NCBI GenBank assembly: GCA_903886275.1
Contig: CAISLN010000019.1
Span: forward strand, 1 to 64,000
From: an uncultured beta proteobacterium
Lineage (GTDB): Bacteria; Pseudomonadota; Gammaproteobacteria; Burkholderiales; Burkholderiaceae_C
Direction of reading: 5' to 3'
DNA: 64,000 nucleotides
The position numbers were made by a program, and so were the translations under genes. The notes under the pieces were generated by a model. The model made no database searches, was not told where the DNA came from, and saw only the letters and a program-made list of their open reading frames with translations. Below, in pieces: positions 7,403-59,178 of this stretch; the stretch's first letter is position 1; each line of letters opens with the position of its first letter.

Positions 7403-9877
7403 ATGCAAGCCATGCCGCCAAGCCCGAATGTTGCCCCGCCCATGTCTCTCTATGTGCCCGCGCCACAGCGCATGGGCCCGTTTGCGGCCCTGCTGGGCTG
7501 GGTGTTGGGCAATGCCCTGCAGCTGCAGCAGGGCGCACTCTGGCCGCTCTGGCACTACCTGGCGCTGGCGCTGGTAGGCGGCTTGTTGTGCGGCTCGCTG
7601 CTGCGTCGCAAGGGACAGCGCTTGGCGAATGCGCAGCGACTTGCGGCCTGGCTGCTGGCGGCCACGTTGATGGGCTTTGCTGGCACCGGCCTGCGCTGTC
7701 TGGCGTTTGACAGCCAGGCGCTGGACCCGGCCCTGGAGGGTCGTGACATCCGCCTGATCGGCGTGGTGACCGACCTGCCACAGCGCAACGAGGCTGGCCT
7801 GCGCTTTACCCTGGCGGTCGAGTCGGCAATGCTGGAGGGGCACGCCATTGCGCTGCCCGCGCTGATCGACGTGGTCTGGTATGGCAGCGCCCTGGGCGCC
7901 GAGCCGTTCGGCCCGCAGCGCCCGCCCGGCGATGTGCGCGCCGGCGAGCGCTGGCAGCTGCTGCTGCGCCTGAAGGCACCGCACGGCAGCCGCAACCCCT
8001 TTGGCTTTGATTACGAGCTGTGGTTGTGGGAGCGCGGCGTGCAGGCCACCGGCTATGTGCGCGCTGGCACCAAGGACCAAGAGCCGCAGCGGCTGGCGCA
8101 AACCTGGACCCACCCGGTGGCCTGGTTGCGCCAGTTGGTGCGCGAACGCATTGCCAGCCATATCGAACAGCGCCAGGTTGCCGGCCTGGTGGCAGCGCTG
8201 GTGGTGGGCGACCAAAACGCCATAGACCGCATGGACTGGGATGTGTTTCGCGCCACCGGCGTTGCGCATTTGGTGAGCATCTCCGGGCTGCACATCACCA
8301 TGTTCGCCTGGGCTGCGGCCTGGGGCGTGGGCAGGTTGTGGCGGCGCTCGGCAAGCCTGTGCCTGCTGCTGCCCGCGCCCAGTGCAGCGCTGCTCGGGGG
8401 GGTGCTGTTGGCCTTTTCCTATGCGCTGTTTTCGGGCTGGGGCATTCCGGCCCAGCGCACCTGTCTGATGCTGGCCTGCGTGGCACTGCTGCGGCTTTTG
8501 GGCCGGCGCTGGCCCTGGCCGCAGGTCTGGATGCTGGCCTGTGCGGTGGTGGTCGCGGCCGACCCCTGGGCCCTGTTGCAGGCCGGCTTTTGGTTGAGCT
8601 TTGTGGCCGTGGGCGTGCTGTTTGCCACCGATGCCGGCGTGGCGCCGCAACCGGTGCCGATTGTGGGTCTGGCGCGCGGCACCGCATCCCGTTTGGCTGT
8701 CCTGCTGCGCGAGCAGTGGGTGGTGACGGTGGCGCTGGCGCCCCTGACCCTGTTGCTGTTTGGGCAGGTCTCGCTGGTGGGCCTCTTGGCCAATGCCTTT
8801 GCCATTCCCTGGATCACGCTGGTGGTGACGCCGCTGTCCATGCTGGGTGTGGTGTGGCCTCTGCTGTGGGAACTGGCGGGCGCCGCCATTGCGCTTTTGA
8901 TGGCCCTGCTGCAGTGGTTGGCAGCTTGGCCCTGGGCCACGCTGAGCTTGGCAGTGGCGCCTTGGTGGCTTGCCGCTGCGGGTGTGCTGGGCGGCGTGCT
9001 GCTGGTGGCGCGCCTGCCCCTGACCCTGCGGGTGATGGGGCTGCCGCTGCTGCTGCCGGTGCTGCTGTGGCAGGCGCCGCTGCCACCCGTGGGCGCCTTC
9101 GAGTTGCTGGCGGCCGACATAGGGCAGGGCAATGCGGTGCTGGTGCGCACCGCCAACCACGCCCTGTTGTACGACGCCGGGCCGCGCTACAGTTTGGAGA
9201 GCGATGCCGGCCACCGCGTGCTGCTGCCGCTGTTGCAGGCCCTGAAGGTGCGCCTTGACATGCTGCTGCTGAGCCACCGCGACACCGACCATGTGGGTGG
9301 GGCGCCGGCCGTGTTGGCCATGCAGCCACAGGCCTTGCTGCTCAGTTCCATCGCCAGCGACGATGCGCTGCAGGGTCTGCGAGTGGCCAGGCGCTGCGAG
9401 GCGGGCCAACATTGGGAATGGGACGGCGTGCGCTTTGACATCCTGCATCCACAGGGCGCCGACTACGCATCGGTGCATGTGCCCAACGCCCTGTCCTGCG
9501 TGCTGCGTATCCAGAGTGCCGGCGCGAGGGTGGCCCTCTTGGTGGGCGATATCGAGGTGGCGCAGGAGGAAGCGCTGGTGGCGATGCAAGCCCCCCTCAA
9601 GGCCGACCTGCTGCTGGTGCCGCACCACGGCAGCAAGAGCTCCAGCAGCGAGGTCTTTTTGGATGCGGTGCAGCCCCTTGTGGCCTGGGTGCAGTCCGGT
9701 TACCGCAACCGCTACGGCCATCCGGCAGCGCAAGTGCTGCAGCGCTATCAAAAACGCAGTATTGTGGTGCGCGACTCGCCCCATTGCGGTGCCATGGTCT
9801 GGCACTCCGACAGTGCAGGGCCAATTGTTTGCGCTCGCACAGAACAGATGCACTACTGGAGCCACCGCGTGCCATAA
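7403..9877 (+). CDS. comEC: ComEC/Rec2-family DNA-uptake channel protein
   Basis: 824 residues, close to the usual length. After a short N-terminus come hydrophobic segments, an N-terminal OB-like extracytoplasmic region (residues ~100-230), the competence domain with many membrane helices (AHLVSISGLHITMF near residue 290), and a C-terminal metallo-beta-lactamase-like domain with S624-H625-R-D-T-D-H630. ComEC carries single-stranded DNA across the inner membrane in natural transformation. Starts at 7403, 7412 and 7442 are all in frame and none has a strong ribosome site, so the exact N-terminus is open. A TTGACA at 7345-7350 may be a -35 element, but no good -10 follows. It sits between the DUF2126 gene and the ATP-grasp/alpha-E pair. 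Confidence 0.93.
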   Translation: MQAMPPSPNVAPPMSLYVPAPQRMGPFAALLGWVLGNALQLQQGALWPLWHYLALALVGGLLCGSLLRRKGQRLANAQRLAAWLLAATLMGFAGTGLRCLAFDSQALDPALEGRDIRLIGVVTDLPQRNEAGLRFTLAVESAMLEGHAIALPALIDVVWYGSALGAEPFGPQRPPGDVRAGERWQLLLRLKAPHGSRNPFGFDYELWLWERGVQATGYVRAGTKDQEPQRLAQTWTHPVAWLRQLVRERIASHIEQRQVAGLVAALVVGDQNAIDRMDWDVFRATGVAHLVSISGLHITMFAWAAAWGVGRLWRRSASLCLLLPAPSAALLGGVLLAFSYALFSGWGIPAQRTCLMLACVALLRLLGRRWPWPQVWMLACAVVVAADPWALLQAGFWLSFVAVGVLFATDAGVAPQPVPIVGLARGTASRLAVLLREQWVVTVALAPLTLLLFGQVSLVGLLANAFAIPWITLVVTPLSMLGVVWPLLWELAGAAIALLMALLQWLAAWPWATLSLAVAPWWLAAAGVLGGVLLVARLPLTLRVMGLPLLLPVLLWQAPLPPVGAFELLAADIGQGNAVLVRTANHALLYDAGPRYSLESDAGHRVLLPLLQALKVRLDMLLLSHRDTDHVGGAPAVLAMQPQALLLSSIASDDALQGLRVARRCEAGQHWEWDGVRFDILHPQGADYASVHVPNALSCVLRIQSAGARVALLVGDIEVAQEEALVAMQAPLKADLLLVPHHGSKSSSSEVFLDAVQPLVAWVQSGYRNRYGHPAAQVLQRYQKRSIVVRDSPHCGAMVWHSDSAGPIVCARTEQMHYWSHRVP

Positions 9878-12375: not shown

Positions 12376-13935
12376 TCAAGCTTCGAGTTGGAACACTGAG
12401 ACGATGTTCACCAGCTCTTCGGACAGGTCTTTGAGTTGGGTCGCGGCATCGGCCATCTGGCGCACCAGTTCGGCGTTTTGTTGGGTCGCCTGGTCCAGCG
12501 AAGACACGGCCTGACCGACCTGGCTCACGCCCAGCGCCTGGGCATTGCTCGCCGCAGTGATGTCGCCCATGATGCCCGTGACGCGCTGTATCGACTCCAC
12601 CACCTCCTTCATGGTGGCGCCGGCCTGATCGACCTGGTTGTTGCCCAACTCCACGCGCTCCACGCTGGCATTGATCAGCGCCTTGATCTCGCGTGCCGCT
12701 GCCGCACTGCGTCCGGCCAGGTTGCGCACCTCGGTGGCCACCACGGCAAAGCCATGGCCCTGCTCGCCGGCGCGGGCCGCTTCCACGGCCGCATTGAGCG
12801 CCAGGATATTGGTCTGAAACGCAATGCTGTCGATCACGCCGATGATGTCCGAGATGCGGTGCGAGGCGGTGTTGATGCCTTGCATGGTGTCCACCACCTT
12901 GCCCACCAGGGCGCCGCCCCGCACGGCCACGGTGGCCGCGCTCGCAGTCAGGCGGTTGGCCTCTTTCGCGGCTTCGGCATTGCGTTGCACGGTGGAGCTA
13001 AGCCCCTGCATACTGGCGGCGGTTTGCTCCAACGCACTGGCCTGCTGTTCGGTGCGGGCCGCCAGGTCGTTGTCGCCATGGGAAATGTCGGCGCTGGCGC
13101 TTGCCACATCCAGTGAACCCTGGCGCACCCGGCCCACGATCTCCACAAAGGCGTCGCGCATGTCCCGCATGGCGTGCAGCAGGCTGTCGCTATCGCCCGC
13201 GCGCAGCGCGATGGGAACGGCCAGATCACCCTGCGCCAGTCTGCGCGTGATGGCCATGGCTTTGAGCGGCTCGCAGCCCACCTGTGCGATCACACTGCGG
13301 GTGATGAGCAGGGACACCGCTACCAGCAGCGCGGCCAGTGCCATGGTGGCCACGGTGGCCTTGGTCAGACGCTCTTTGATAAAGCTGTCCACCGTGTCCA
13401 CATAGACGCCCGAACCAATCACCCAGCCCCAGGGTGCAAAGCCCTTGACGAAGGAGGCCTTGGGCACCGATGTTTCGCTGCCGGGTTTGGGCCACTTGTA
13501 GCGCACAAAGTCGCCGCCCTCGCGCTTGCCCGCTTTGATGAATGCCAAAAACAGTTGGTTGCCATCGGCATCGCGGTCCTGTGTCACATCCTTGCCCTCC
13601 ATCTCCGGCTTGATCGGATGCATGACCATGGTGGGATGCATGTCGTTGATCCAGAAGTACTCATTGCCGCCGTAACGCAAAGCCCGCAGGGCGGCGATGG
13701 CGCCACGCTTGGCCGCTTCTTCGTCGAGCTTGCCTGCGGCAATCTGCCCATGAAAGTAGAGCACCAGGCTGTGCGCACTTTCTACGGCCTGTTGCACACT
13801 GCGTTCGCGCTCCTCCATGATCAGGGCGCGCTCGGACGTCAGCAAAACCCCCGTCAGGCAACCGATACCCAAGAGGCAGATGAGGGTCAGCAAGGCCAGC
13901 CTGCGGGCAATGGTGAGGGAATGGAGTGTGAACAT
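12376..13935 (-). CDS. Methyl-accepting chemotaxis protein with periplasmic Cache domain
   Basis: 519 residues from the ATG at 13935 (GGGAGA upstream); a longer frame to 14124 would overlap the next gene. Order: membrane helix ~10-30, a periplasmic single-Cache domain ([29 protein letters not shown]), a second helix near 190-210, HAMP, then a methyl-accepting signalling domain with the tip sequence [18 protein letters not shown]. Cache domains of this type bind small organic acids or similar ligands; the signal passes to CheW/CheA. No pentapeptide tether for CheR is seen at the C-terminus. Convergent with the alpha-E gene. Confidence 0.93.
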
Positions 13936-46968: not shown

Positions 46969-48372
46969 TCAGGCCTGCAGTGGCAAGCGCAGTGGCACGC
47001 GCAACTGCGCGCTCACATGGAGCTGGTCGGTAGCGCTCAGGGTCAGCGTGCCGCCGTGCAGGTGGGTAATTTCGCGGCACAGGCTCAAGCCCAGGCCTTG
47101 GCCCTGGCCCAGGTCCGACATACGCCGACTGCGTGATGCACTGCCGCGGTAGAAACGGTCAAAGGCCTTTTGCGACAACTCCGGGCTAAAGTGCTGGGTC
47201 GGGTTTTCCAGGCTGAGCAGCAGCCAGCCCTCGGACTGCGTCGCCTTGAAGTGGATCCATCCCTGGTCGATGTTGTAGTTCACCGCATTGGTGTACAGGT
47301 TGAAAACCAGTTGCCGAATCAGCAGCGCATCGCAATGCCAGAAGATGCCCGCTTCGACCTCCGAGCTGATGCGCAGGCCGGTTTCGAATTGCGCCGCATC
47401 GCTCACGAGTTCAGTCAGAAAGTCACTGAAATCGAGTTGCGTCAGTTCCAGGCTGATGGCGCGTGCGTCTGCGCGCGACAAGAGCAAGAGCTTCTCGGTG
47501 ATGTCCACCAAGCGCCCGACCTCCTCTTCCATGATGCGCAGGCGCACCTGGCCATCCGAGCCGGTGGGCGATTCATTGATGGCCTGTTCTACATGGCCAC
47601 GCAGAATGGTCAGCGGCGTTCTTAGCTCGTGGGAAGCGTCGGCGGAAAAACGTTGCGACTGCTGGAAGCTGGCGTGCAGTCTGGCGCGCAGTTCCTCCAT
47701 GGAGGCAATCAAGGCGACGAATTCACGGTGCGGCTGGGAAATTTCAATGGGCTGGTCCAGATTGCTGGAACTGAGTCGGGCCATGGTGTCCCTGAGTTGG
47801 TCCAAGGGCCGCATGAGCTGGCGAATCAAAAACCAGGCCAGGAAACCCATGGCCAACACCAGCAGAGGAATCACATACAGAAACACCCGATTACGCAGGT
47901 CCCACATGTTCTTCACAAAATCATCGCGCCTGGATTTCTTCAGCAGTATCGACTCGGCCCCGTCCTGCGAACGAAAGGCCAGCCAGGCTTGCCCGTCCAG
48001 CATCGCCTCGCTTTGTTGCGGCCCGCTTGCATCTTCAGCCGCCAGCGCATGCCACTTGAGTGCCGCCGGCTGAAGCTGCGCACACAGGGCCGAAACTCGA
48101 TCTGTCGAAAAACTGCCCGGGCACAACTGCAGATGCAGTGATAGGCCTTCCAGCAGCGAGTCGGCTGTAGCGTCCGCCGCGCAAGCCCGCAGGCGCCGCC
48201 CGTCCGCCGACAGACCCTGGCACTGGCGCAGAACGCTCACCATGTTCTGTTCGACAAGGTGAGCCACATAGACACGCGCCACGTACCAGCTCAGCACGCG
48301 GTTTCCGGCCACGATCAGGGCCAGGCAAACCAGGGCCTGCAGGAACAATTGGATGCGTAAGGACTTGGGCAT
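46969..48372 (-). CDS. Sensor histidine kinase (QseC/PmrB-like layout)
   Basis: 467 residues. Helix 1 (LFLQALVCLALIVAG), a periplasmic domain of about 130 residues with several Cys, helix 2 (VFLYVIPLLVLAMGFLAWFL), HAMP, then HisKA with SADASHELRTPLTI and an ATPase domain (NLYTNAVNYN, GQGQGLGLSLC). It follows its response-regulator gene with no gap. The pair is divergent from the unusual cluster at 49551-59178 and is its most likely regulator. Confidence 0.93.
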   Translation of the reverse strand: MPKSLRIQLFLQALVCLALIVAGNRVLSWYVARVYVAHLVEQNMVSVLRQCQGLSADGRRLRACAADATADSLLEGLSLHLQLCPGSFSTDRVSALCAQLQPAALKWHALAAEDASGPQQSEAMLDGQAWLAFRSQDGAESILLKKSRRDDFVKNMWDLRNRVFLYVIPLLVLAMGFLAWFLIRQLMRPLDQLRDTMARLSSSNLDQPIEISQPHREFVALIASMEELRARLHASFQQSQRFSADASHELRTPLTILRGHVEQAINESPTGSDGQVRLRIMEEEVGRLVDITEKLLLLSRADARAISLELTQLDFSDFLTELVSDAAQFETGLRISSEVEAGIFWHCDALLIRQLVFNLYTNAVNYNIDQGWIHFKATQSEGWLLLSLENPTQHFSPELSQKAFDRFYRGSASRSRRMSDLGQGQGLGLSLCREITHLHGGTLTLSATDQLHVSAQLRVPLRLPLQA

Positions 48373-49059
48373 TCAGGCCTGATTGGCGCGCATGCGATAG
48401 CCCACGCCCCGTATGGACTCTATCGGAAAGGACTCAGGCAGCGAGCTGGAGTCGCTGAGCTTTTTGCGTATGCGTTGGATGCAGACATCGACCACATTGG
48501 TCTGTGGGTCAAAGTCGATGTCCCACACCTGCTGCAGGATTTGCTTGCGCGAAAAAATATGCCCAGGTGATCGCATCAGATAGCCCAGCAGGCTGAATTC
48601 GCGCTGGCTCAGCACCACCGATGTGGCATGCCATTGCGCCTTTCGGCTGACCCGGTTGAGCGTCAGCCCGGCGCTGCTCCAGTCCTCGGGCTCCTCTCTG
48701 TGCCGGCGTGCCAACACGGCCCGGATGCGGGCGATCAGCTCCTCGGTAAAAAAGGGCTTGGGCAGGTAGTCATCTGCACCGAGCTCGAAGCCGCGCAGTC
48801 GGTCCGGCAAATCGGCTCTGGCGCTGAGAACGATGACCGGCGTCAGCACCTGTTGCTGACGTGCCCTGCGCAAGACCTCAAAGCCGTCCATGCCGGGCAA
48901 CAAGCCGTCGAGCAACACCAGATCGGCATCGCCCTGCAGCATGGCCGCCAGGCCCGAGGGACCGTCTTGTGCAAGCTGAACCAGGAAGCCGGCCTCTTGT
49001 AAACCCTGCTGCACAAAGTCAAAAATCCGGGCTTCATCTTCAATCAACAAAATTTTCAC
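48373..49059 (-). CDS. OmpR-family response regulator
   Basis: 228 residues from the GTG at 49059, giving MKILLIEDEARIFDFVQQGL, the standard N-terminus; the frame continues to a TTG at 49116. Receiver with phospho-Asp in LVLLDGLLPGMDG and Lys in YLPKPF; then a winged-helix DNA-binding domain (LSQREFSLLGYLM, NVVDVCIQRIRKKL). Partner of the kinase encoded immediately downstream. Likely to bind in the 490-bp gap before the divergent cluster. Confidence 0.93.
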   Translation of the reverse strand: MKILLIEDEARIFDFVQQGLQEAGFLVQLAQDGPSGLAAMLQGDADLVLLDGLLPGMDGFEVLRRARQQQVLTPVIVLSARADLPDRLRGFELGADDYLPKPFFTEELIARIRAVLARRHREEPEDWSSAGLTLNRVSRKAQWHATSVVLSQREFSLLGYLMRSPGHIFSRKQILQQVWDIDFDPQTNVVDVCIQRIRKKLSDSSSLPESFPIESIRGVGYRMRANQA

Positions 49060-49202
49060 TGTATTTTTCAACCTGCTCGTACTTGTGTGCTTAACCAAGA
49101 GTTCGTATTCAATCAAGATGAGCTTTCTTCATCTCGGGAGCCTATCAGCTGGCGGCTGCTTAAGCTGATTTATGTATTTTGTAGTACGCAGCCAAGCGAT
49201 AC

Positions 49203-49222
49203 AACTGCCCCTTAGGGCAGTT
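49203..49222. promoter_or_regulatory. Perfect 8-bp inverted repeat
   Basis: AACTGCCC-CTTA-GGGCAGTT. It could be a regulator-binding palindrome or a hairpin; only three T residues border it, so it is a poor terminator for either strand. Confidence 0.5.
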
Positions 49223-49232
49223 TGAATGATGG

Positions 49233-49248
49233 GACCTATCCATAGGTA
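49233..49248. promoter_or_regulatory. NarL-type 7-2-7 palindrome candidate
   Basis: GACCTATCCATAGGTA; its reverse complement TACCTATGGATAGGTC fits the NarL 7-2-7 consensus (TACYYMT, 2 bases, inverted TACYYMT) at all but the last position. A LuxR-type regulator could bind here, although the neighbouring regulator is of OmpR type. Confidence 0.4.
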
Positions 49249-49550
49249 TGAATCCATCAGCCGACCACCGGCTTTGTGGCGTGGTTCAAAAGTGGCTGGC
49301 AGTTGGCTTGCGCCCGAGCCAAATTGGGATTGCTCGGCAGATCCATCATTACCTTGCTGTCATAAAAGCCGCTTTCGATTACCGTTCTGTAATAAACGCA
49401 CGCAATGGCCGAAAACTGCAGTTTCCCCCTCAATGGTGATGGCACATTAGCCCCAATTCGCTTAGGCAGAGCCGGTTTCCCGGTTGCCAAAACTAAACAA
49501 AATTCATGTATGACGCCCGCGTTTTTGGGCTTCGCAAATCAAGGGATGCT

Positions 49551-50189
49551 GTGGAAAATCGAAAAATCAGAATCGCCATGTTCGGCAGCTTTTATCGCGG
49601 CTATTACATGCTGGATGAACTGCTGCATGGGCCGTTAAAGGACCATTTCACGGTCGTGGGCGTGGCCAGCGATGACGTCAGCGAGTCCTTCATCAGCAGC
49701 AAGGTAAGGGTCTGGCAATACCCGCATTTGCCGGTGGAGGAGACCATGGTCGAGCGCCGTTCAAACCAGCATGACTTGCCCTTTTACAAGGGCCGCATCA
49801 AGTGTGAAGCTTTCTATGAAAAATACGAGCAAGAGTGGGCGCCAGACATGTGTGTGTCGGCCACCTTCGGGCAGCGCATTGACGCCCGGCTATTCAAGTT
49901 TCCCGGCTTGGGCTTTTTCAATATCCATCCCTGTATAGAAGACGGTTGGCCCTCCAAGTACGCAGGCCCCAACCCCTTCCAGGCCCTGATGGACGACGGC
50001 CATGACTATGCCATGGCGGCACTGCACCGGGTCGATGACGGTTTTGACACGGGTGAGTTGATCGCCATGTCCTCGCGTATCGCCATGCCGCCACACGCCA
50101 CGGTAGTTGATATGCACAAGATTACGTCCCCTGTGGTCGCCCGTTTTGCCGCTTACGAACTGGCCAAACTCGCAGGGGTCGCGGCATGA
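49551..50189 (+). CDS. Formyltransferase-fold protein
   Basis: 212 residues from a GTG at 49551 with AAGGGA before it; an ATG at 49506 is also in frame but has no ribosome site. The core matches the formyl-transferase N-terminal fold of Fmt and PurN: IRIAMFGSFYRGYYMLDEL, a catalytic-type His in LGFFNIHPCIEDGWPS and Asp in VDDGFDTGELIAM. There is no C-terminal Fmt domain, and it is not in a tRNA-fMet or purine context. It may formylate a small amine or sugar amine. Its stop overlaps the start of the next gene (ATGA). Confidence 0.8.
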   Translation: MENRKIRIAMFGSFYRGYYMLDELLHGPLKDHFTVVGVASDDVSESFISSKVRVWQYPHLPVEETMVERRSNQHDLPFYKGRIKCEAFYEKYEQEWAPDMCVSATFGQRIDARLFKFPGLGFFNIHPCIEDGWPSKYAGPNPFQALMDDGHDYAMAALHRVDDGFDTGELIAMSSRIAMPPHATVVDMHKITSPVVARFAAYELAKLAGVAA

Positions 50190-51040
50190 AGGGCTGTGTG
50201 TTCGCGGCGTTCAAGGCGCTGTGCGTGATGCTGCTGTGTGCATCCACCCTCGCCAAGCAGCCATCGGACGCGCCCGCATCACCCCTGGTGCGCGTGTCAG
50301 ACGGGCGGATGCTGGCACCGGATATTGCGCGCATCATCAACAAGGGTGAGTTGATCGTGGCCGTGCTGAACTTGGATACGCGCCCTTTTGTCTACGTTAA
50401 GAATGGCGAGCTAGCCGGTGTTGACATCGCCCTGGTGCGCCAGGTGGCGGCCGAACTGCAGGTGCCGATTCGCTTTGACCGCAGCTCTAAGACCTATGAC
50501 GAGATTGTGCAACTTGTCGCTAGCGGACAGGCCGACCTAGGCGTCAGCAAACTTGCACGCACGCTCAAACGTGCCCAGTCGGTGCAATTCTCCACCCCCT
50601 ATATGCGGCTGGAACATTCGCTGCTGATCAACCGCCTGGCCTTTGCCAATGTGGCGCGCGAGCAGTCGGTGTCGCATGCGGTGCTCAACTTCACGGGCAC
50701 CATTGGCGTGTTGGCCGGATCGGCCTGGGAAGAATTTGCAAGGCGCAATTTCATCCAGGCCAAGGTAGTTCCCTATGCTAGTTGGCGCCTGGCGGTGGAC
50801 GCTGCCAAGCGGGGCGAGGTGGTGGCGGCTTACCGGGATGCCATCGAGGTAAGAACCATCATGCAAGCAGACCCCACCCTGGCGCTGACCATGCGCACCG
50901 TCAGCTTTAGCGACCTGCAGTCGGCGTTGTGCGTCATGGTGGGTTCAAGCGACAACATGCTGCTGGCCTTCGTCAACGAAATCGTGGCCAATCAAACCGA
51001 GCCGCCCACTGTGAGCGCACTGCTCAAGCAAATGCAATGA
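50186..51040 (+). CDS. Periplasmic solute-binding protein, family 3
   Basis: 284 residues with a signal peptide (FKALCVMLLCASTLAKQ). Type-3 binding-protein features: LIVAVLNLDTRPFVYVKNGE, then LAGVDIALVRQVAAELQV, then ASGQADLGVSKLARTLKRAQ. Such proteins usually bind amino acids or related acids for ABC transporters, but no ABC permease or ATPase is nearby; the next gene encodes a secondary symporter. Coupled by overlap to the formyltransferase-fold gene. Confidence 0.88.
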   Translation: MKGCVFAAFKALCVMLLCASTLAKQPSDAPASPLVRVSDGRMLAPDIARIINKGELIVAVLNLDTRPFVYVKNGELAGVDIALVRQVAAELQVPIRFDRSSKTYDEIVQLVASGQADLGVSKLARTLKRAQSVQFSTPYMRLEHSLLINRLAFANVAREQSVSHAVLNFTGTIGVLAGSAWEEFARRNFIQAKVVPYASWRLAVDAAKRGEVVAAYRDAIEVRTIMQADPTLALTMRTVSFSDLQSALCVMVGSSDNMLLAFVNEIVANQTEPPTVSALLKQMQ

Positions 51041-51050
51041 AGGACTGTGC

Positions 51051-52385
51051 ATGAAATATCCATTCAATCGAGCGCAATTTCAGCGCTTCTCTACCAATCC
51101 CTGGACCGTGTTCGCTTGTGTACTGATAGGTGGCCTGCTGGGTTGGTCTGCACCGGAATTTTCCAAAAACCTTTCGGTGGTGGGCCTGGTCTATGTAGGC
51201 CTGCTCAAGATGATCGTTATGCCCTTCATGGTGGCGGCCGTGATCTTCAGCCTGCAAAAACTGTTCAGGGATGGCGGCGCAGGCAAAATCTTGGGTCGGG
51301 TGATGCTGGTGTTTGCGACCTTCTCGGTGGCTGCCGCACTGATCGCCGCACTGTGTACTTTGTTGATACAACCAGGCGGCCATATGTCGCTTGCCAGCAA
51401 GGCGGCCATGGGCAGAATTGTCGGCGCCAGCGGCGACAGCAGCAATACCCTCGTGGCCATGCACCGTGCCGAGGAGCTACCCAAGGCGTTGAGACTGCAA
51501 GATGTATTGGACTCGCTGATACCGTCCAATATATTTGCCTCGCTGGCCAACGGTGAAACCCTCAAGACCCTGGTGTTCTCCCTGCTGTTTGGCTTTGCTG
51601 TGGGACAGTTGCCGGGCCGCATTGCCGAGAGCACGGGCCAGATACTGGAAACGGTTTACCACGCCTGCCAAGTGCTGACCCGCTGGGTCAATCTTCCGGT
51701 TGCCCTGGTGCTGATCTGCATGACGGCCAGTCAGATTGCCGAGACCGGCCTGGAACCCCTGAGCGCCATGATGGGATTTGTAGTGGCCTTTCTGGCGGTC
51801 AGCCTGGTGCTGCTGGCACTGTCGGTGTTGCTCATCAGTTGGCGCAGCGCTCGCTCCTTCGCTCAGGTGCTCGATGCCCTGCGCGAGACCTTCACCCTGG
51901 GGGTGGCCACCAACAATAGCGCCACTTGCATGCCGGCCATGGTAGATGGTCTGGTCGAGCGACTGAACTTTGCACGCTCGCGGGTCGAGTTGCTGGTGCC
52001 GCTGAGCGTATCGTTGCTGCGAGCCGGGGCGATTGCCTATTTTGTCTGTGGCGCCCTGTTCATTGCAGCCATCTACAACCGGGAGCTCTCGGCCATGGAA
52101 GTCGGGCTGGTGGTGTTGGTTTCGGTGCTGTCGGGCTTTGCTTCGGCCGGCATGGCCGGCATTCTGACCATCTCGCTGATTGGCACGGCCTGCAACTACC
52201 TCGGCCTGCCGTTTGAAGCGGCCTTCATTCTCTTTGTCGCGGTGGATCCCATCTGCGCCATGGCCCGTACGGCCGTCACCGTGATTGGCAGTTGCGCGGC
52301 CGTTGCCGTGGTGTGTGCCAAGCCCGACCCTTTCTCCCCTGTCCCTACTGACACCCTCCACCAACCTGGAACCCTTCCCACATGA
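51051..52385 (+). CDS. Dicarboxylate/amino-acid:cation symporter (DAACS family)
   Basis: 444 residues, multi-spanning. Family features: VYVGLLKMIVMPFMVAAVIF near the start, a segment TLGVATNNSATCMPAM in the position of the re-entrant serine-rich loop, and GTACNYLGLPFEAAFILFVA with DPICAMARTAVTVIG near the end, equivalent to the substrate site. It departs from DctA/GltP in the loop (TNNSAT instead of the usual SSS-type) so the substrate may differ. AAGGA precedes the ATG; its stop overlaps the next start (ATGA). Confidence 0.88.
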   Translation: MKYPFNRAQFQRFSTNPWTVFACVLIGGLLGWSAPEFSKNLSVVGLVYVGLLKMIVMPFMVAAVIFSLQKLFRDGGAGKILGRVMLVFATFSVAAALIAALCTLLIQPGGHMSLASKAAMGRIVGASGDSSNTLVAMHRAEELPKALRLQDVLDSLIPSNIFASLANGETLKTLVFSLLFGFAVGQLPGRIAESTGQILETVYHACQVLTRWVNLPVALVLICMTASQIAETGLEPLSAMMGFVVAFLAVSLVLLALSVLLISWRSARSFAQVLDALRETFTLGVATNNSATCMPAMVDGLVERLNFARSRVELLVPLSVSLLRAGAIAYFVCGALFIAAIYNRELSAMEVGLVVLVSVLSGFASAGMAGILTISLIGTACNYLGLPFEAAFILFVAVDPICAMARTAVTVIGSCAAVAVVCAKPDPFSPVPTDTLHQPGTLPT

Positions 52386-52879
52386 AACCTTTGAATACCA
52401 TGCGTCTGAGTGCACTCACCCTGGCAGCCCTGTTGCCCTTTGCCGTGGCAGCACAAAGCCAGCCCGCCCCGGCGCCTAATGCCAAAATTGCCGTACCCAA
52501 GCCGCACCCTTTGTTGGCCCAATCGTTCAACCCGCAAGTAGGCCCCAAGCTGCTCGCCACGGTTGATCAGATGACGGCGACCCTGGCGGCTGTGACAGCA
52601 CCGGTTCAGGCAACTGCGGCCCTGGCCAAAATTTTGCAGATCTGGCCGACCTACCTGCAACTGGACAAGGACTTCACGACCCAACTGGAGCAGATTGCCG
52701 CGCATCACTATATCGGCAAGAAGACCAGCGACATGGCTTCCGTGGAAACCGCGATGACCAATAGCTTGGCAGTCAAAGGCCCGGCACTGGATGCCGAGTT
52801 GCTACGCCTAAGCAAACTGCCCCTGGCTGCTGCCGATATGGCGGCGTTGCAAAACCTGCGCAAGGCGCTGGCCGAATAA
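52382..52879 (+). CDS. Unrecognised exported protein, tandem paralogue 1
   Basis: 165 residues: signal peptide (MRLSALTLAALLPFAVAAQS), a Pro/Ala-rich linker, then a ~125-residue helical domain shared with the next two genes (FNPQVGPKLLATVDQM, ILQIWPTYLQLDKDFTTQL, GKKTSDMASVETAM, LRLSKLPLAAADMAALQ). I recognise no family. Its signal peptide differs from those of copies 2-4. It is translationally coupled to the symporter gene, which suggests a job in the same periplasmic process. Confidence 0.75.
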   Translation: MKPLNTMRLSALTLAALLPFAVAAQSQPAPAPNAKIAVPKPHPLLAQSFNPQVGPKLLATVDQMTATLAAVTAPVQATAALAKILQIWPTYLQLDKDFTTQLEQIAAHHYIGKKTSDMASVETAMTNSLAVKGPALDAELLRLSKLPLAAADMAALQNLRKALAE

Positions 52880-52934
52880 GGCACGGCCCAACTATTGCCC
52901 AACCACTCTCCCAACCACGAAATACTTACCTTCC

Positions 52935-53549
52935 ATGAAAACACCATTGATCACCACCACCTTGGCCTCCAAACTGCTGCTGGGCCTGTTCATTGCAACC
53001 GTCGGTTTCAATGCTGCGGCTTGCAAATGGACCGATGTCGCCTGCAAGACCAAGGAAGCTGCGAAATCCGTTACGGATACCGCCAACACGGCTGCGAAAT
53101 CCGCTACGGATACCGCCAACCATGTCAACGGCACAGCCGTGGTCAGCACACCCGTGGTCAGCACAGTCGGGGCGCACCCTTTGTTGGTCCAACCGTTCAA
53201 CCCCCAAGTAGGCCCCAAGCTGCTTGCCATGGTTGATCAGATGACGGCGAGCCTAGTGCCTGTGACCACACCGGTTCAGGCGGCTCCGGCTCTGGCCAAA
53301 ATTTTGCAGATCTGGCCGACCTACCTGCAACTGAACAAGGACTTTACGACCCAACTGGTGCAGATTGCCGCGCACAACCAGGTCGGCAAGAAGACCAGCG
53401 ACATGGCTTCTGTGGAAACCGCGATGACCACTGGCTTGGCGGTCAAAGGCGCGGCACTGGATGCTGAGTTGCTACGCCTGAGCAAGCTGCCCCTGGCTGC
53501 TGCCGATATGGCGGCATTGCAAAACCTGCGCAAGGCGCTGGCCGAGTAA
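52935..53549 (+). CDS. Unrecognised exported protein, tandem paralogue 2
   Basis: 204 residues. N-terminus MKTPLITTTLASKLLLGLFI, then ATVGFNAAAC, is a signal peptide ending in AAAC, so a lipoprotein or ordinary cleavage are both possible. Next comes an 11-residue-type repeat stretch (AAKSVTDTANT, AAKSATDTANH), then the shared helical domain, almost identical to that of copy 1 (TYLQLNKDFTTQLVQIAAHN). The spacer after it is nearly the same as the spacer after copy 1. No Shine-Dalgarno sequence precedes the ATG. Confidence 0.75.
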   Translation: MKTPLITTTLASKLLLGLFIATVGFNAAACKWTDVACKTKEAAKSVTDTANTAAKSATDTANHVNGTAVVSTPVVSTVGAHPLLVQPFNPQVGPKLLAMVDQMTASLVPVTTPVQAAPALAKILQIWPTYLQLNKDFTTQLVQIAAHNQVGKKTSDMASVETAMTTGLAVKGAALDAELLRLSKLPLAAADMAALQNLRKALAE

Positions 53550-53591
53550 GGCACGGCCCAACTATTCCTCCACACCAACTACTTACCTCCC

Positions 53592-54155
53592 ATGAAAAAA
53601 TTATTTATCACCCCCACGTTGGCCTCCAAACTGCTGCTGACCCTGTTCGTTGGAACCGTCGGTTTCAATGCTGCTGCTTGCACACGCTGGGATATGGCCT
53701 GCAAGGCTAAGGATGCTGCCAACACGAGCGCGAAATTCGCTGCGGATGCCGCCAACCAGATCAACGGCGTAGCCAAGCCGAACCCTTTGTTGGTTCAACC
53801 GTTCAACACGCAACTAGGCCCCAAACTGATCACCCTGGTTGAGCAGATGACCGCGACCCTGGTGACTATTACCACACCGGCTCAAGCGGCTCCGGCCCTG
53901 GCCAGGATTTTGCAGATCTGGCCGATGTACGAGCAACTGGACAAGGACTTCACGATCCAACTGGTGCAGATTGCCGCACATCAACAGGTCGGCAAGAAGA
54001 CCAACGACATGGCTTCCGTGGAAACCACAGTGGCCCAGAACCTGGCGCTCAAAGGCCGTGCAATGGATGCGGAGTTGCTCCGCGTGAGCAAGCTGCCACT
54101 GGCTGCTGCGGATATGGCGATGGTGCAAAACCTGCACAAGGCGCTGGCCGAGTAA
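53592..54155 (+). CDS. Unrecognised exported protein, tandem paralogue 3
   Basis: 187 residues. Signal peptide as in copy 2 (TLASKLLLTLFVGTVGFNAA, then AC), a shorter linker, then the shared domain with more substitutions (LITLVEQMTATLVTITTPAQ, MVQNLHKALAE). The bases before the ATG (ACTTACCTCCC) match those before copy 4 and contain no Shine-Dalgarno sequence. Function unknown; the repeated copies imply dosage or heteromeric assembly. Confidence 0.75.
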   Translation: MKKLFITPTLASKLLLTLFVGTVGFNAAACTRWDMACKAKDAANTSAKFAADAANQINGVAKPNPLLVQPFNTQLGPKLITLVEQMTATLVTITTPAQAAPALARILQIWPMYEQLDKDFTIQLVQIAAHQQVGKKTNDMASVETTVAQNLALKGRAMDAELLRVSKLPLAAADMAMVQNLHKALAE

Positions 54156-54197
54156 GGCAAGAGCAAACCACTCCCCCACACCAACTACTTACCTCCC

Positions 54198-55310
54198 ATG
54201 AAAAAACCATTTATCAACCCCACGTTGGCGTCCAAACTGCTGCTGGGCCTGTTCATTGGAACCGTCGGTTTCAATGCCGCCGCTTGCGGTCGCTGGGATG
54301 TCATCTGCAAGACGAAGGCCGCTGCCAACAGCGTGGCGAAAGTTGCTACGGATTCCGGCAACGCTGTTGCTTCCACTGCCACTTCCGCTGGCAACACGGT
54401 TGCTTCTACTGCCACCTCCGCTGGCAACACGGTTGCTGCCACTGCCACTTCCACTGCCAACACGGTTGCTGCCACTGCCACTTCCACTGCCAACACGGTT
54501 GCTTCCACTGCCGACCAATTGGCAAAGCAGGGCGCGGCCATTTCCGCGGCAGAAGCAAAGACCCTGATCAACGGCGCCAAGACTGCCTACTCGGCCTCTG
54601 CCACAGAGATGACCAACGGCTACAACGCCTCAGTCAACCAGTTCAAATCCCTGTTGAACGACGCGTTGACAGCTGTCTGGCGCACTGCCGGCAAGAAAGT
54701 TGTCAACGATAGTAAAACTTTAATCGTCGGCATGAAGCACCGCGCTCAGAACCTCGACGCCGCTGGACAGGCTGCACTGAACCGGGTCAAGCGCGCCATC
54801 TCTGCCAACCATATCGACGAACAGGCACGCGCTGACATTCATGCGCTGACCAAGGCGATTGTCTATGGTGGCAACGACATTGCGAGCTCCGTCACCCATT
54901 CCAGCTTCGGCATCCAGACCTGCGACAGTGTCGGTGCGGGCAACGTGGGTGGCGAAACCTGCTACATGATGATCATGCAAACCTATCTGGAAAACGGCAA
55001 ATACAAGGTCGGCCTGGCCCGCTCGTTCGGCGTGGCCGCCAGCCCGTACCCCTCGGATATCGGTGTGGAATCTACCTTCGGCATTTTCTGGGGTCCCGGC
55101 GGCATTGACGACAACACCGGCGCATCCATCGGTCTGGGCCTAGGCGTGATGTTGGAAGAAGGTCTGGAAATTGGCATGTCCTGGGGCATTCCGACGGCTA
55201 TTCCTGATCCAAGCTCCGTTATTCCTAGCTTTTCGATTTCGATTGGCGTCGGTGCAAAGGGTGAAGCCGCCTTGACTGCAGGTTACACCAAGGTTCTGAC
55301 CAAGTTGTAA
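54198..55310 (+). CDS. Exported protein with paralogue-type N-terminus, 11-residue repeats and Gly-rich tail
   Basis: 370 residues. The first ~40 residues nearly repeat those of copies 2-3 (TLASKLLLGLFIGTVGFNAA, then AC). Residues ~54-105 are five 11-residue units of the type NTVASTATSAG, like LEA-type amphipathic repeats. A helical middle (residues ~110-235) follows, and the last ~130 residues are Gly-rich with alternating strands (VESTFGIFWGPGG, GASIGLGLGVMLEEG, FSISIGVGAKGEAALTAGYT), reminiscent of membrane-inserting or barrel-forming strands. The shared 125-residue domain of the paralogues is absent. No family recognised. Confidence 0.75.
   Translation: MKKPFINPTLASKLLLGLFIGTVGFNAAACGRWDVICKTKAAANSVAKVATDSGNAVASTATSAGNTVASTATSAGNTVAATATSTANTVAATATSTANTVASTADQLAKQGAAISAAEAKTLINGAKTAYSASATEMTNGYNASVNQFKSLLNDALTAVWRTAGKKVVNDSKTLIVGMKHRAQNLDAAGQAALNRVKRAISANHIDEQARADIHALTKAIVYGGNDIASSVTHSSFGIQTCDSVGAGNVGGETCYMMIMQTYLENGKYKVGLARSFGVAASPYPSDIGVESTFGIFWGPGGIDDNTGASIGLGLGVMLEEGLEIGMSWGIPTAIPDPSSVIPSFSISIGVGAKGEAALTAGYTKVLTKL
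54363..54515 (+). repeat. 33-bp tandem coding repeats
   Basis: Units like GCTTCCACTGCCACTTCCGC followed by TGGCAACACGGTT recur about every 33 bp, five times, encoding the 11-residue repeats of the 370-residue protein. Neighbouring units are nearly identical in DNA, so recent expansion is likely. Confidence 0.8.
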
Positions 55311-55401
55311 GCCAATACCCCGCAGGGTCAGCGCATTGTGCTGAGCCTGCGGGCTGTCGCGGCGGTATGCCGCGCGACGAAGGGTGAACGTAAAGGAAGC
55401 T

Positions 55402-56394
55402 ATGCAAGCGATCAAGAGTTGGCGCCCCCTGTTGGGCGCTTTGGGCGTGGCGCTGGCCTTGTTCGGAGCGAGCCCGCTCGCCTGGGCGCAGTGGCATGCG
55501 AAAGACGACTTCCACGACAAGCTGATGCAGTTGGGCGCAGGTCCCGATGGCGGCTCATTCGGACCGATTGGCGAGACCCTGTGCGAGGCCATGAACAAAG
55601 TGCGCTCCAGCACCTTGGTGCGCTGCGTGCCACTGCGCTCGGCCGGTTCGGTATTTAATATTTACGCGGTTGCCAATGGTTCCCTGCAGTTGGGTTTCGG
55701 CCAGGAAGATCTGGTCGCAGAGGCGTTTCTCAACAGCGAGACCAAGGGCGGCAGCACGCTGCGCACCGTGGCCATTCTTCACAACTCACCGATAGGCATC
55801 ATGGTGCGCAAGGTCTCTGGCATTACGGAACTTTCGCAAATACGCAAGGGCGTGGTGAACAAGGGCAACAAGGGTTCGGGCATTTACGCCAACGCCAGTG
55901 CGGTGCTAAAGGCCATGAACCTGGAAGAGCGCGACCTGGCAGGCGTGACCTTCCTGCCACCGACCGCGTTTGAGCGGGAATTTTGCGAAGGGCGTGTGGA
56001 TGTCATCTTCAATGCGCTGGCCCACCCTTCGGATCTGTACCGCAGGCTGCGCGCCTGTGGTGGCGAGTTCCTCGACATCCCGCCAGATATCATGAAAAAG
56101 CTGATGGCCGACAATCCGTTGCTGCGTCCCATGGATATTGCTGCGGGCATGTACGACGCCCAGCAGCCCCAGGTCAAGACACTGGGCATGCGCAATCTGC
56201 TGGTTTCCAATTCCCAGGTGGACGAAGAGGCCATCTACCGAGTCGCCAGCCTGATCAACCACGAATACAAAACCATGCAGTCCAAACAACCCTATCTGTC
56301 GAGCATGAAGCAGGTCAATCCAAGTGACTTGGATTCATTGGCTGTGCCCCTGCATGCCGGTGCACTGCGCGCCTTGAAAGAAGCGCGGCCATGA
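55402..56394 (+). CDS. TAXI-family (TRAP-associated) solute-binding protein
   Basis: 330 residues; the ATG at 55402 is chosen for AAAGGAAG just upstream, although a GTG at 55384 is in frame. Signal peptide LLGALGVALALFGASPLAWA. The pattern LGAGPDGGSFGPIGETLCEA, then VPLRSAGSVFNIYAVANGS, then LQLGFGQEDLV is that of TAXI proteins, which normally serve TRAP transporters. No TRAP permease is in the window, so it may work with the symporter or as a sensor. Its stop overlaps the secretin gene start (ATGA). Confidence 0.85.
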   Translation: MQAIKSWRPLLGALGVALALFGASPLAWAQWHAKDDFHDKLMQLGAGPDGGSFGPIGETLCEAMNKVRSSTLVRCVPLRSAGSVFNIYAVANGSLQLGFGQEDLVAEAFLNSETKGGSTLRTVAILHNSPIGIMVRKVSGITELSQIRKGVVNKGNKGSGIYANASAVLKAMNLEERDLAGVTFLPPTAFEREFCEGRVDVIFNALAHPSDLYRRLRACGGEFLDIPPDIMKKLMADNPLLRPMDIAAGMYDAQQPQVKTLGMRNLLVSNSQVDEEAIYRVASLINHEYKTMQSKQPYLSSMKQVNPSDLDSLAVPLHAGALRALKEARP

Positions 56395-58319
56395 GCGCGC
56401 CTCCAGTCGCAAGTTGTTCTGATGCCCGCCCATTGCTTCTGGGATGGAGCGGTGCCGCACTTCTGGTGTGTGCATTGGGCCTAACGCCCTTGAACGCGGC
56501 GGAAATTCCGCCGGGCCTGGCACCGACCATCCAGCAGGTGCTGAGCTCCCTTCGCCCAGACCTGGCAAAGGTCACCCAGACGGAGGCCTTGGAACGGGCG
56601 ACTTCGGCCCTGCAGCTCGCTGCGGAACTGAAACTTCCACAGGCAAGCAGGGCCATCAATGAGGCATTGCGACTGGACCCACGCAACTCTTGGTTGCATT
56701 TCTTCAACGGCCTGATCTACCACCTGCAGGCGCGCCAGGGGGACACGGAAAAAACCAATACCGCCATAGAAGGCTACCAGCAAGCGATTCGTTTCGATCC
56801 CAACAACTGGATTGCCAACGAGTTTCTCGGCCTGGCCTTTGCCGAGCAGCGACAGTTCAAGCGAGCGCAGGCCGCGTTTGCCGAAGTGCTGCTCAGCCGA
56901 CCCGATGACCTCGACACGTTACTGCGCATGATGGCTACTTCCTACCTGGGTGCCGACGCTGCCATGGCCTGCACCATGGCCGACCGGATAGCCAGTTTGT
57001 ACACCCGCCAGGAGCCGCGCCTGTTGCGCTCCAGTGTGCCGGTCTATGCCTCCTGCGGTGAATTCCAGAAAGCCGACGCACAGCGCAAGTCATACAAGGC
57101 CAGCGGTGCCACCTCAGAGGATCTTGCCCGTCTGGATCAACGGGTTGAAAGCTGGCGTGTTTTTTACAAGTACCGCAGTAACCGTGCAGAACTGGCGGAC
57201 AAGGCCGGTGCGACAGGCGCTGATCCTTTCATGCTCAAAACCCAGTTCACCGCCCCGGGTTCCTCCTTTGGTTTACCTGCGGCAGGAGGCTTTGGCTTTG
57301 GAGCTGCTCCGGGAGCCATCAGCGCCACAGCAGTTTCCAGCGGCGAGACACGCATGGTGCTCGTGGATGTGGTCATGATACGAACCCAAGACACCTTGCA
57401 GACCACCAAGGGCATCAATTTGTTGAGCACCTTGACCCTGCAATATGGCTCAGCCACAGCGCCCGCCTTTAGCGAAGCCTTTAGCCAGACCTCGGGCGCC
57501 GAAAGTGCGACGGTGGTCACCCGTGCGATCACCGTGCCGGCGCTCACCTACTCGATGAACATTGCCAATGCAAACAGCACCCTCAATGAGGTATTGGCAC
57601 GCCCCACACTGGCCGCCTTGGAGGGCATGCGCTCCGAGTTTTTCTCTGGCACCACACTGAATGCAGCGGTGGTTTCCAGCGGGACAGGTACGTCTGGCAG
57701 CGCAGTCTCGATCGAGAAGCGCTATGGCGTCAAGCTCACGGTGCTGCCGCAGGTCTTGCCAAACGGCATGGTCAAACTGGCCATAGACGCGTCGCGCACC
57801 TTTTTGCAGCCACCCAGTACCAACATCGGATTCACTTATAAATTGGAGATCTCCGAAATCACGGCCAACGCCAATGTGGTGATGCGCATGGGTGACACGC
57901 TGATATTGGGCGGACTCAGCGAGAAGGAGAGCACCAGCACCCGTGACGGTGTGCCGGGCTTACAAGACGTTCCCATTTTGCAATATTTCTTTTCTGCGCA
58001 GCAGAAGACCGACTACCAAAAATCCGTTCTGATCCTCATCACGCCGCGTCCAGCGAGCTACACCTGGCTGTCCGATGAGTCCAAGGCAGAGTTCGCAAAG
58101 ACACCGGGTGATCCTTTCAATCCCAGCATGGACGTGCTGCGCGCACGCTATAGCGACTGGTTCAAGCCCTATCCGAATCTGGCCTCGGTGTTTCACCATC
58201 TGAATGCGGCCGATCTATACCGCGAGTTCCGCACCGGCGATGTGACCTTGGAGTCATGGGACCGCATGGACAGTACCCGCTCGCGCCTGAAGCAGGCGTT
58301 GGGCTTTTTATATTACTAA
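56391..58319 (+). CDS. TPR and secretin-domain outer-membrane protein
   Basis: 642 residues. A signal-type hydrophobic segment (~18-37), TPR-like helices (~75-185: AINEALRLDPRNSWLHFFNG, YQQAIRFDPNNWIANEFLGL), a Gly/Ala-rich hinge, then a secretin domain (~340-560). Secretin hallmarks are NEVLARPTLAALEGMRSEFF, VGVKLTVLPQVLPNG-like KYGVKL, and DGVPGLQDVPILQYFFSAQQ. Secretins form gated outer-membrane rings in type II/III secretion, pili and phage export. Here N-terminal N0/N1 domains are not apparent, TPRs take their place, and no ATPase, pseudopilin or inner-membrane platform is encoded nearby. Closest to the Cpa/Tad or GspD-like group by its end motif. Confidence 0.85.
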   Translation: MSAPPVASCSDARPLLLGWSGAALLVCALGLTPLNAAEIPPGLAPTIQQVLSSLRPDLAKVTQTEALERATSALQLAAELKLPQASRAINEALRLDPRNSWLHFFNGLIYHLQARQGDTEKTNTAIEGYQQAIRFDPNNWIANEFLGLAFAEQRQFKRAQAAFAEVLLSRPDDLDTLLRMMATSYLGADAAMACTMADRIASLYTRQEPRLLRSSVPVYASCGEFQKADAQRKSYKASGATSEDLARLDQRVESWRVFYKYRSNRAELADKAGATGADPFMLKTQFTAPGSSFGLPAAGGFGFGAAPGAISATAVSSGETRMVLVDVVMIRTQDTLQTTKGINLLSTLTLQYGSATAPAFSEAFSQTSGAESATVVTRAITVPALTYSMNIANANSTLNEVLARPTLAALEGMRSEFFSGTTLNAAVVSSGTGTSGSAVSIEKRYGVKLTVLPQVLPNGMVKLAIDASRTFLQPPSTNIGFTYKLEISEITANANVVMRMGDTLILGGLSEKESTSTRDGVPGLQDVPILQYFFSAQQKTDYQKSVLILITPRPASYTWLSDESKAEFAKTPGDPFNPSMDVLRARYSDWFKPYPNLASVFHHLNAADLYREFRTGDVTLESWDRMDSTRSRLKQALGFLYY

Positions 58320-58332
58320 GAGTGACCGGACC

Positions 58333-59178
58333 ATGAACCAACACCGCATGTTCGCAACCATCACCAAAGGTCTGCTGTTCGTAAGTGCATTGCTGACCAG
58401 TGCTGTCTGGGCGGGTGATCCGGCGGAAACGAAACGCCTGCTGGCCGGGCGGTCTTGCCCGCGTTGCGACCTGCGCTACGAAAATGCGTCGCAACTGGTC
58501 TCCAAAGAGGTGGACCTGCGTGGCGCCTACATGTTCAATATCAACCTCTACAGCGCACGCCTCGACGGCGCTTCGTTGGAAAGTGCCAACCTGCAGACCG
58601 CCAATCTGGAGCGCTCCGACCTGTCGCACGCCCATATGGGACGTGCCACCCTGTCCTATGCCAGTCTGGCAGGTGCCACGCTGGTCGCCAGCGTGTTGCA
58701 ACAGGTGGTGGCCAGGGAAGCCAATTTCGATGCAGCTGATCTGTCGGATGCGGACCTTTCCACCTCCGACCTGTTTCGCTCCAGCTTCATCAATGTCTTT
58801 GCAGAAAACACCAACTTCATGAGTGCGGATCTGCGCAGCACCAACTTCAGCAAGGCCCGCCTGAGCGGCGCGCAATTCGTGAGTGCCAACTTGGCCGATG
58901 CCAACTTCAGCGGTGCGCGTCTGCCCTCCGCGGACATGCGCAGGGCGCAAATGGCACGCATCAATTTGTCAGGTGCCAACTTGGCCTACTCCAACCTCAC
59001 CGGTGCCGTGCTGAAAAACGCCAACCTGCAAAATGCGGACCTGACCGGGGTGAACCTGTCCAATGCCGATCTGCAAAACGCCGATCTGAGTGGCGCCGAA
59101 ATGGGCAGCACCTTGCTGGAGGGGGCCATCACCTGCGGCGCAAAATTCCCCGCCAACATGGTGATTACGCCTTGTTAA
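58333..59178 (+). CDS. Exported pentapeptide-repeat protein
   Basis: 281 residues with a signal peptide (GLLFVSALLTSAVWAGD). After a short segment with CPRC come about 40 pentapeptide units of the A(D/N)LXX type from residue ~55 to ~270, predicted to fold as a right-handed square beta-helix rod. A Cys pair (CGAK near the end, final Cys) may form a disulphide. Most pentapeptide proteins are cytoplasmic; an exported one directly after a secretin is unusual. Last gene of the cluster, 13 bp from the secretin stop. Confidence 0.88.
   Translation: MNQHRMFATITKGLLFVSALLTSAVWAGDPAETKRLLAGRSCPRCDLRYENASQLVSKEVDLRGAYMFNINLYSARLDGASLESANLQTANLERSDLSHAHMGRATLSYASLAGATLVASVLQQVVAREANFDAADLSDADLSTSDLFRSSFINVFAENTNFMSADLRSTNFSKARLSGAQFVSANLADANFSGARLPSADMRRAQMARINLSGANLAYSNLTGAVLKNANLQNADLTGVNLSNADLQNADLSGAEMGSTLLEGAITCGAKFPANMVITPC

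Follow-up and report, generated by a model that had tools for sequence, protein, structure and literature searches.

We analysed a 64,000-nt window of contig CAISLN010000019.1 and compared it with 52 other loci of the same secretin family (labelled Lnnn below). The results showed that three adjoining genes, encoding a TAXI-family binding protein (TAXI), a secretin with an N-terminal TPR part (SEC) and a pentapeptide-repeat rod (PENTA), form a unit that recurs in other genomes and may be an outer-membrane apparatus for export or gating that has not been described before. The sequence-only reading of this DNA had proposed a ten-gene envelope cluster with its own two-component pair. Its interpretation was partly supported: the region is more than a chance collection, but its centre is three genes, not ten, and the wider secretin family is more informative than the window alone.

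A core of three genes

The complete trio was found in 11 of the 52 loci (L036, L037, L038, L039, L040, L042, L044, L054, L055, L062 and L068), in agreement with the expectation that the core genes are kept together in other genomes; in L056, TAXI and SEC are followed by the contig end. The gene order was TAXI-SEC-PENTA in nine loci and SEC-TAXI-PENTA in L062 and L068. The TAXI and PENTA genes overlap by four bases in L062, and in its sister L068 they lie in one open reading frame (ORF) of 592 residues, counted from the first start codon. Such TAXI-PENTA fusions occurred in four protein clusters (P0136-P0139, 568-572 aa, that of L068 included, with 77-100% identity to L068), so a single assembly error does not account for the fusion. 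The motif CxxCDLRY was present in each of the 12 PENTA proteins; the window's PENTA has it near the N-terminus as CPRCDLRY, contains about 47 pentapeptides and looks exported.

The TAXI protein scored 164.3 bits against TIGR02122 (cut-off 84.35), which places it in the TAXI family, and aligned with solved TAXI proteins. In VcGluP, a glutamate-binding TAXI protein, Tyr45 and Gln93 are key residues of the binding site (PMC11574862). With positions mapped by eye, the Gln was present in 9 of 13 rows of our alignment and the Tyr was replaced by Phe in 12 of 13. In Pfam and NCBIfam scans of the window's cluster, no TRAP membrane component was matched by any of its ten products, in line with the earlier statement that the binding proteins have no TRAP permease.

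The proposed ten-gene system was not upheld. Its other members are a formyltransferase-fold protein (FT), a family-3 binding protein (SBP3), a symporter (SDF) and four paralogues (par1-par4). Across the loci, the constant unit is TAXI-secretin-pentapeptide and the FT-SBP3-SDF genes are optional. We rejected the ten-gene unit because the close relatives L036 and L044 have the order FT-SBP3-SDF-TAXI-SEC-PENTA, which leaves par genes no space, and because other loci lack FT-SBP3-SDF or have SBP3-SDF downstream. Of the companions of the secretin named earlier, the pentapeptide protein was found with it elsewhere, a par4-type protein occurred in 6 of the 52 loci, and relatives of par1-3 were found in none of them.

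In the flanks of the L042 trio (12649-13638 and 7285-8520), Pfam recognised a diguanylate cyclase that carries a cNMP-binding domain, as well as a YHYH-domain protein. Nearby ORFs, judged by eye, are CHASE2-type cyclase-like and FecR-like; the same two clusters are also represented at L081.

A separate secretin family

SEC scored 102.9 bits against PF00263 (cut-off 27.5), which makes it a member of the secretin family, and fell below the PilQ and GspD equivalog thresholds (74.7 of 284.35 bits for TIGR02515 and 64 of 351.35 for TIGR02517). The first 40 Foldseek matches were all secretins or secretin complexes; the rows for the core had TM-scores of about 0.2 by query length and serve only as support for the family. 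The core is similar to PulD, PilQ and RcpA. In the structure model, a TPR superhelix at about residues 65-273 is confident and is followed by a low-confidence linker and strands. Before the core, Pfam matched nothing except TPR, and the model, reliable only in the TPR part, has no confident N0-N3 domains. The VIA-align structure list for SEC consisted of generic TPR proteins throughout and was uninformative on the secretin part.

A locus scan that worked from two peptide patterns and an alignment of 21 sequences (the window's own plus 20 relatives) yielded at least 49 loci in named genomes. Three further loci came from the family search, giving the 52 loci, or 53 rows with the window. All 53 contain an ORF scoring 144-1092 bits on the family profile, compared with 26-45 bits for the four other secretins of the window's own genome. 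Judged by its sequences, the SEC family is a separate, rare secretin family. It is spread over beta- and alphaproteobacteria. At E 1e-40 it was found in 11 of 399 genomes of the order and in 4 of 200 genomes of the taxonomic family, where two members, L086 and L087, are distant and have no tail. In the protein database, 649 of 7993 scored candidates matched at E 0.001, and those at the lower end may be other secretins; plasmids gave no SEC match at E 1e-20. Two of the loci, L050 and L059, carry the same isolate name and belong to a single metagenome-assembled genome; one cell may therefore hold two copies of the family.

The TPR part was present in 52 of the 53 members, the exception being L080, which begins at a contig end, and the C-terminal tail in 50. 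The window's SEC ends in GFLYY. A final Tyr or Phe closes the chain in 43 of the 53 members, mostly as FLYY or FLFY, even at an identity of about 30%. None of the own genome's four other secretins ends in this way. Among 25 other secretin loci of the family search, 24 had a resolved chain end and two of these were aromatic; 8 of the 24 show an unlikely distance to the stop codon and may be misread. Within the TPR part, N106 is invariant across 51 aligned sequences, at a position that we take to be that of the peptide-clamp asparagine of TPR proteins.

Engine genes beside the secretin

Searches of the own genome showed nine T2SSE stretches and four T2SSF genes above the cut-off, the nearest of them 67 kb from SEC. 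We used these 13 sequences as tblastn queries at E 1e-3. No match was found in the 52 related loci (877 kb, with flanks of at most 10 kb, shorter at contig ends), while the control loci were found; window positions 40001-64000 likewise gave no T2SSE or T2SSF match, the queries including no Tad-specific proteins. The sequence-only reading had described the secretin as lacking engine partners and had named a standard type II or Tad locus beside it as the finding that would overturn the idea. For type II/IV engine genes in the flanks covered, the description stands.

Partner genes change along the secretin tree

We built a tree by a quick method from the 53 family members, with the four own secretins as outgroup. 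Partner labels were set by hand; counting the four outgroup rows, 23 of 57 rows carry no label. The results showed that partner type follows the tree, with 4 changes over all labels against a shuffled mean of 17.8. By label, TAXI-PENTA comprised 12 rows with 3 changes, the c5 clade 12 rows with 1 change, tectonin 3 rows with 1 change, and MscS with a cyclic-nucleotide domain 6 rows with 1 change.

Secretins of the c5 clade adjoin large proteins that look exported. Jacalin-like domains were detected in 8 loci and tectonin proteins in 4, adjoining SEC or within 2.3 kb of it and nowhere else in the flanks; three of these loci went into each profile and so match by construction. Pfam placed jacalin over its cut-off in all six loci submitted (L041, L048, L049, L052, L053 and L060) and tectonin in all three (L057, L061 and L085). 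MscS together with a cNMP-binding domain was recognised by Pfam in L067, L076, L081 and L082. The secretin thus appears to be the constant element, and the exported or sensing partner the variable one.

The MscS-cNMP channel lies downstream of SEC in L067, L076, L080, L081 and L082 and elsewhere in the locus at L079, the assignments at L080 and L079 being by cluster membership only. On the opposite strand just behind SEC, L069 (11903-17407) and L071 (10985-14533) encode proteins of one cluster, of 1834 aa and at least 1182 aa, respectively. At L061 (7382-9715), the B-lectin score of a 778-aa protein upstream of SEC was 26.2 bits, short of the cut-off of 32.4. A repeat motif of the c5 proteins was considered as a shared export signal and was discarded, since it is restricted to 9 ORFs of the c5 clade.

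Proposed mechanism and likeness to known systems

Known secretins form the outer-membrane portion of larger machines. We tentatively favour the reading that SEC is a dedicated, self-piloting outer-membrane unit without an inner-membrane engine of its own, whose partner passes or gates the pore. The secretin would be exported via Sec, and its N-terminal TPR domain would serve as a built-in pilotin that captures the C-terminal aromatic tail of its own or the adjacent subunit; ring assembly in the outer membrane would then need no separate pilotin. Because the ring seemingly lacks N0-N3 domains, it would not couple to an ATPase-pseudopilus engine and would instead dock a Sec-exported partner encoded alongside. 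The partner in the window's lineage would be TAXI and the pentapeptide rod as one periplasmic unit, the rod entering, plugging or crossing the pore, perhaps under the control of ligand binding by TAXI. In other lineages, lectin-like proteins would take the partner position. The two-component pair would set expression, and SBP3-SDF would be an auxiliary uptake or sensing branch. The sequences themselves establish the constant trio, the TAXI-rod fusion, flanks free of the queried engine genes in the parts covered, the joint occurrence of TPR part and tail, and the exchange of partners along the tree; the assembly, gating and ligand of the unit are inferred.

One of the closest parallels is the Tad system. 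In it TadD, a TPR lipoprotein, binds the secretin RcpA at its last residues, and ring assembly requires TadD as well as those residues (PMC10499894). SEC resembles the RcpA/TadD pair of Pseudomonas aeruginosa in combining a secretin core with a TPR protein; it also has a conserved aromatic tail, which its TPR part may bind. In contrast to that pair, TPR part and secretin form one chain, the sequence family is separate, and no T2SSE or T2SSF gene was found alongside. By analogy, pilotin and secretin in a single chain would be the simplest reading; the tail might just as well make contact with the membrane or within the ring. With GspD and PilQ, SEC shares the common secretin fold family, whereas its TPR part, its own C-terminal tail, the lack of recognised N0-N3 domains and of engine genes found beside it set it apart.

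The TAXI-GltS system of Bordetella pertussis (BP0402/BP0403) likewise has a TAXI protein without a TRAP permease, and its authors regard fusions as strong support for pairing (PMC12344293). Both loci also contain a secondary symporter. In the present case, however, TAXI is fused to a pentapeptide rod and not to a transporter, a secretin belongs to the core, and the symporter is of the SDF family and adjoins its own family-3 binding protein. DotG/IcmE, which is located in the Dot/Icm outer-membrane core, is a secretion-system protein with a pentapeptide-repeat stretch that matches PENTA in sequence. The likeness is limited to the repeats, and no other Dot/Icm gene was noted in the window. Among titles and abstracts of the open-licence literature, we found no recognisable description of a TPR-fused orphan secretin or of this cluster.

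If the proposal is true, the secretin would be a self-standing device with no machine alongside, its pilotin in the same chain and its partner changing by clade, and the TAXI-pentapeptide fusion would offer a handle on ligand control of an outer-membrane pore. A possible but doubtful extension is that these proteins constitute an undescribed class of outer-membrane conduits: self-piloting secretins of one chain, with no inner-membrane engine, whose pore is gated or filled by exchangeable recognition proteins that differ from clade to clade. The partners of that class would be the TAXI-pentapeptide unit, jacalin or tectonin lectin-like proteins, and MscS-type channels with a cyclic-nucleotide domain.

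Several observations weigh against the proposed self-piloting unit. The aromatic end is missing in 10 of the 53 members, including the whole MscS clade, and binding of the tail in a groove is not visible in the SEC model, which is reliable only for the TPR part. The own genome contains other secretion ATPases and platform proteins, which may help in trans. TAXI proteins are periplasmic elsewhere, and the fusion therefore argues against simple surface export of the rod. In the tree, 19 of the 53 secretins carry no partner label; at L085, one of these, a tectonin protein was recognised afterwards. Within the 13-row c5 clade, the 5 loci besides those with jacalin gave no jacalin match, some of their contigs ending early. 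Finally, the density of regulator genes shows no steady fall with distance from SEC.

Less likely readings: uptake or secretion in trans

The sequence-only reading had left the choice between sensing, uptake and surface export. Across the wider family, the findings point to a dedicated secretin whose exported or sensing partners can be exchanged, and to uptake as an optional add-on. As the main function, nutrient uptake is unlikely. On that account, the secretin would be an entry pore, TAXI and SBP3 would bind periplasmic solute, SDF would import it and FT would modify it. It fits the presence of SBP3-SDF with the trio in five of the 52 loci: L036 and L044 have the pair upstream, together with FT, and L037, L040 and L055 have it downstream. 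SBP3 also retains an arginine and an aspartate in the alignment, presumably the motif expected of amino-acid binders. The TAXI-GltS authors describe binding proteins that act on elevator transporters as a theme now emerging (PMC12344293). Against this, the transport pair was not found, in the flanks as available, in 6 of the 11 other trio loci or in other clades, and the lectin-like partners are left unexplained. SDF belongs to the SDF symporter family (191.4 bits, cut-off 27.9), yet in comparison with 9bgz neither the NMDGT motif nor the last TM8 aspartate is present in any of the six SDF sequences, the window's included. We take these to be the sodium-coupling features of SDF symporters, and canonical sodium coupling is therefore doubtful. 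SBP3-SDF would be a candidate binding-protein-dependent secondary transporter. The catalytic residues of FT are of the NIH...D type, which we take to be the formyltransferase motif.

Quite improbable, too, is a reading of the secretin as a leftover or accessory part of a type II or Tad system, served in trans by other ATPases and platforms, with the rod and the paralogues as type II substrates. The T2SSE stretches and T2SSF genes elsewhere in the genome and the similarity of the core to known secretins speak for it. Yet the four platform genes can be paired with the genome's four remaining secretins (for two of the genes a secretin lies on the same contig, and the other pairings are by judgement), N0-N3 domains were not recognised before the SEC core, and SEC forms a conserved family of its own in two proteobacterial classes.

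Insertion site and regulators

The GC content of the ten cluster genes was 55.8-60.1%, compared with 62.5-66.6% in four flanking genes; that of the kinase and the regulator was 60.7% and 58.1%, respectively. On the left, the block is bordered by a kdotransferase gene (PF04413) and on the right by a TolC-type outer membrane efflux gene (Pfam), which in the window lie 13.7 kb apart. Among 12 same-genus genomes searched, 10 had an efflux-gene match, and in 9 of these 10 the kdotransferase gene directly adjoins it; with four matching genomes from farther away added, the two adjoin in 12 of 14. The block between them looks acquired, since the flanking pair adjoin each other in those 9 of 10 same-genus genomes. 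The first gene of the 13.7-kb stretch encodes an M20 peptidase (Pfam) and has a native-like GC content, so the true insert may be smaller. In L046 (2075-11722; Hydrogenophilales), a TolC-type/kdotransferase pair is likewise found no more than about 6 kb from the secretin, which may reflect a shared insertion spot or be a coincidence. That the region is a chance collection of acquired genes without joint function, as its low GC, a site empty in most relatives and the rarity of par1-3 and FT might suggest, is highly improbable and is contradicted for the core by the trio in 11 loci, the 4-base overlaps and the gene fusion; for par1-3 it may hold.

Over the 53 loci, some of them near-copies, receiver-domain genes were found upstream of SEC in 19 cases and downstream in 7. 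Their density per 10 kb was 0.46, 0.29, 0.63 and 0.20 in successive 2.5-kb bins. We keep the two-component link as weak, because there is no clear fall with distance and because of the near-copy loci. The kinase adjoining the L041 secretin carries a 7TMR-DISMED2 domain, which the window's kinase lacks. Of the supposed two-component pair belonging to the cluster, its presence at the window was borne out, but the type or place of the regulator varies between loci; a regulatory link to the cluster is plausible.

Gene layout and paralogues

The ten rightward ORFs (49506-59178) and the divergent kinase/regulator pair (46969-49116) were all recovered at or near the positions first reported (Table 1). 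Starts overlap or lie close together, as described earlier, with 4-base overlaps at FT/SBP3, SDF/par1 and TAXI/SEC and gaps of 10-73 bases elsewhere. The N-termini, read by eye, are consistent with nine of the ten products being exported or membrane-bound.

Table 1. Genes of the cluster and the divergent two-component pair, in window coordinates
Feature	Position	Strand	Evidence and remarks
Sensor histidine kinase, HAMP-HisKA-HATPase	46969..48372	-	Domain matches; divergent from cluster
OmpR-type response regulator, Response_reg-Trans_reg_C	48373..49116	-	Start uncertain, GTG at 49060 also fits
FT, formyltransferase-fold protein PF00551	49506..50189	+	Pfam; orthologues in L036 and L044, same order
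SBP3, family-3 periplasmic binding protein (SBP_bac_3)	50186..51040	+	Orthologues in 5/52 loci
SDF, glutamate/dicarboxylate-type symporter	51051..52385	+	Pfam; without NMDGT motif and last TM8 aspartate
par1, paralogue, looks exported	52382..52879	+	ORF and nucleotide comparison
par2, paralogue, looks exported	52935..53549	+	15 clusters in protein database
par3, paralogue, looks exported	53592..54155	+	ORF and nucleotide comparison
par4, paralogue leader, 11-residue repeats, predicted beta domain	54198..55310	+	Relatives in 6/52 loci; low-confidence model
TAXI-family periplasmic binding protein, core gene 1	55384..56394	+	NMT1_3/TRAP-TAXI; adjoins secretin in 12/52 loci
SEC, TPR-secretin, core gene 2	56391..58319	+	Leader, TPR 65-273, linker, secretin core 395-553, tail
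PENTA, pentapeptide-repeat rod, core gene 3	58333..59178	+	Pfam Pentapeptide; in 11/52 loci

The four related proteins, which look exported, proved to be chain-like relatives. Par1-3 have 300 nt in common, with 83-90% identity to par2, and a 150-nt stretch over the par2 start is repeated at par3 and par4 with 83% identity. The second half of par4 is unlike the other paralogues. Par4 also has 33-nt tandem repeats (54357-54521) encoding 11-residue units, which precede its predicted beta domain; the AlphaFold model of par4 had a mean pLDDT of 54 and was not used for searches. None of par1-4 matched a Pfam or NCBIfam family above the cut-off. In the protein database, the par2 cluster P0126 and the secretin P0004 share a longest contig value of 15781, and P0128 and P0022 one of 8569, which suggests that the members of each pair may be co-located.

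Rfam gave no match in the region, and promoter- and terminator-like sites there were not above shuffled sequence. An inverted repeat seen by eye (CCCGCAGG...CCTGCGGG) lies at 55319-55353 between par4 and TAXI; it has no T run and could be an attenuator.

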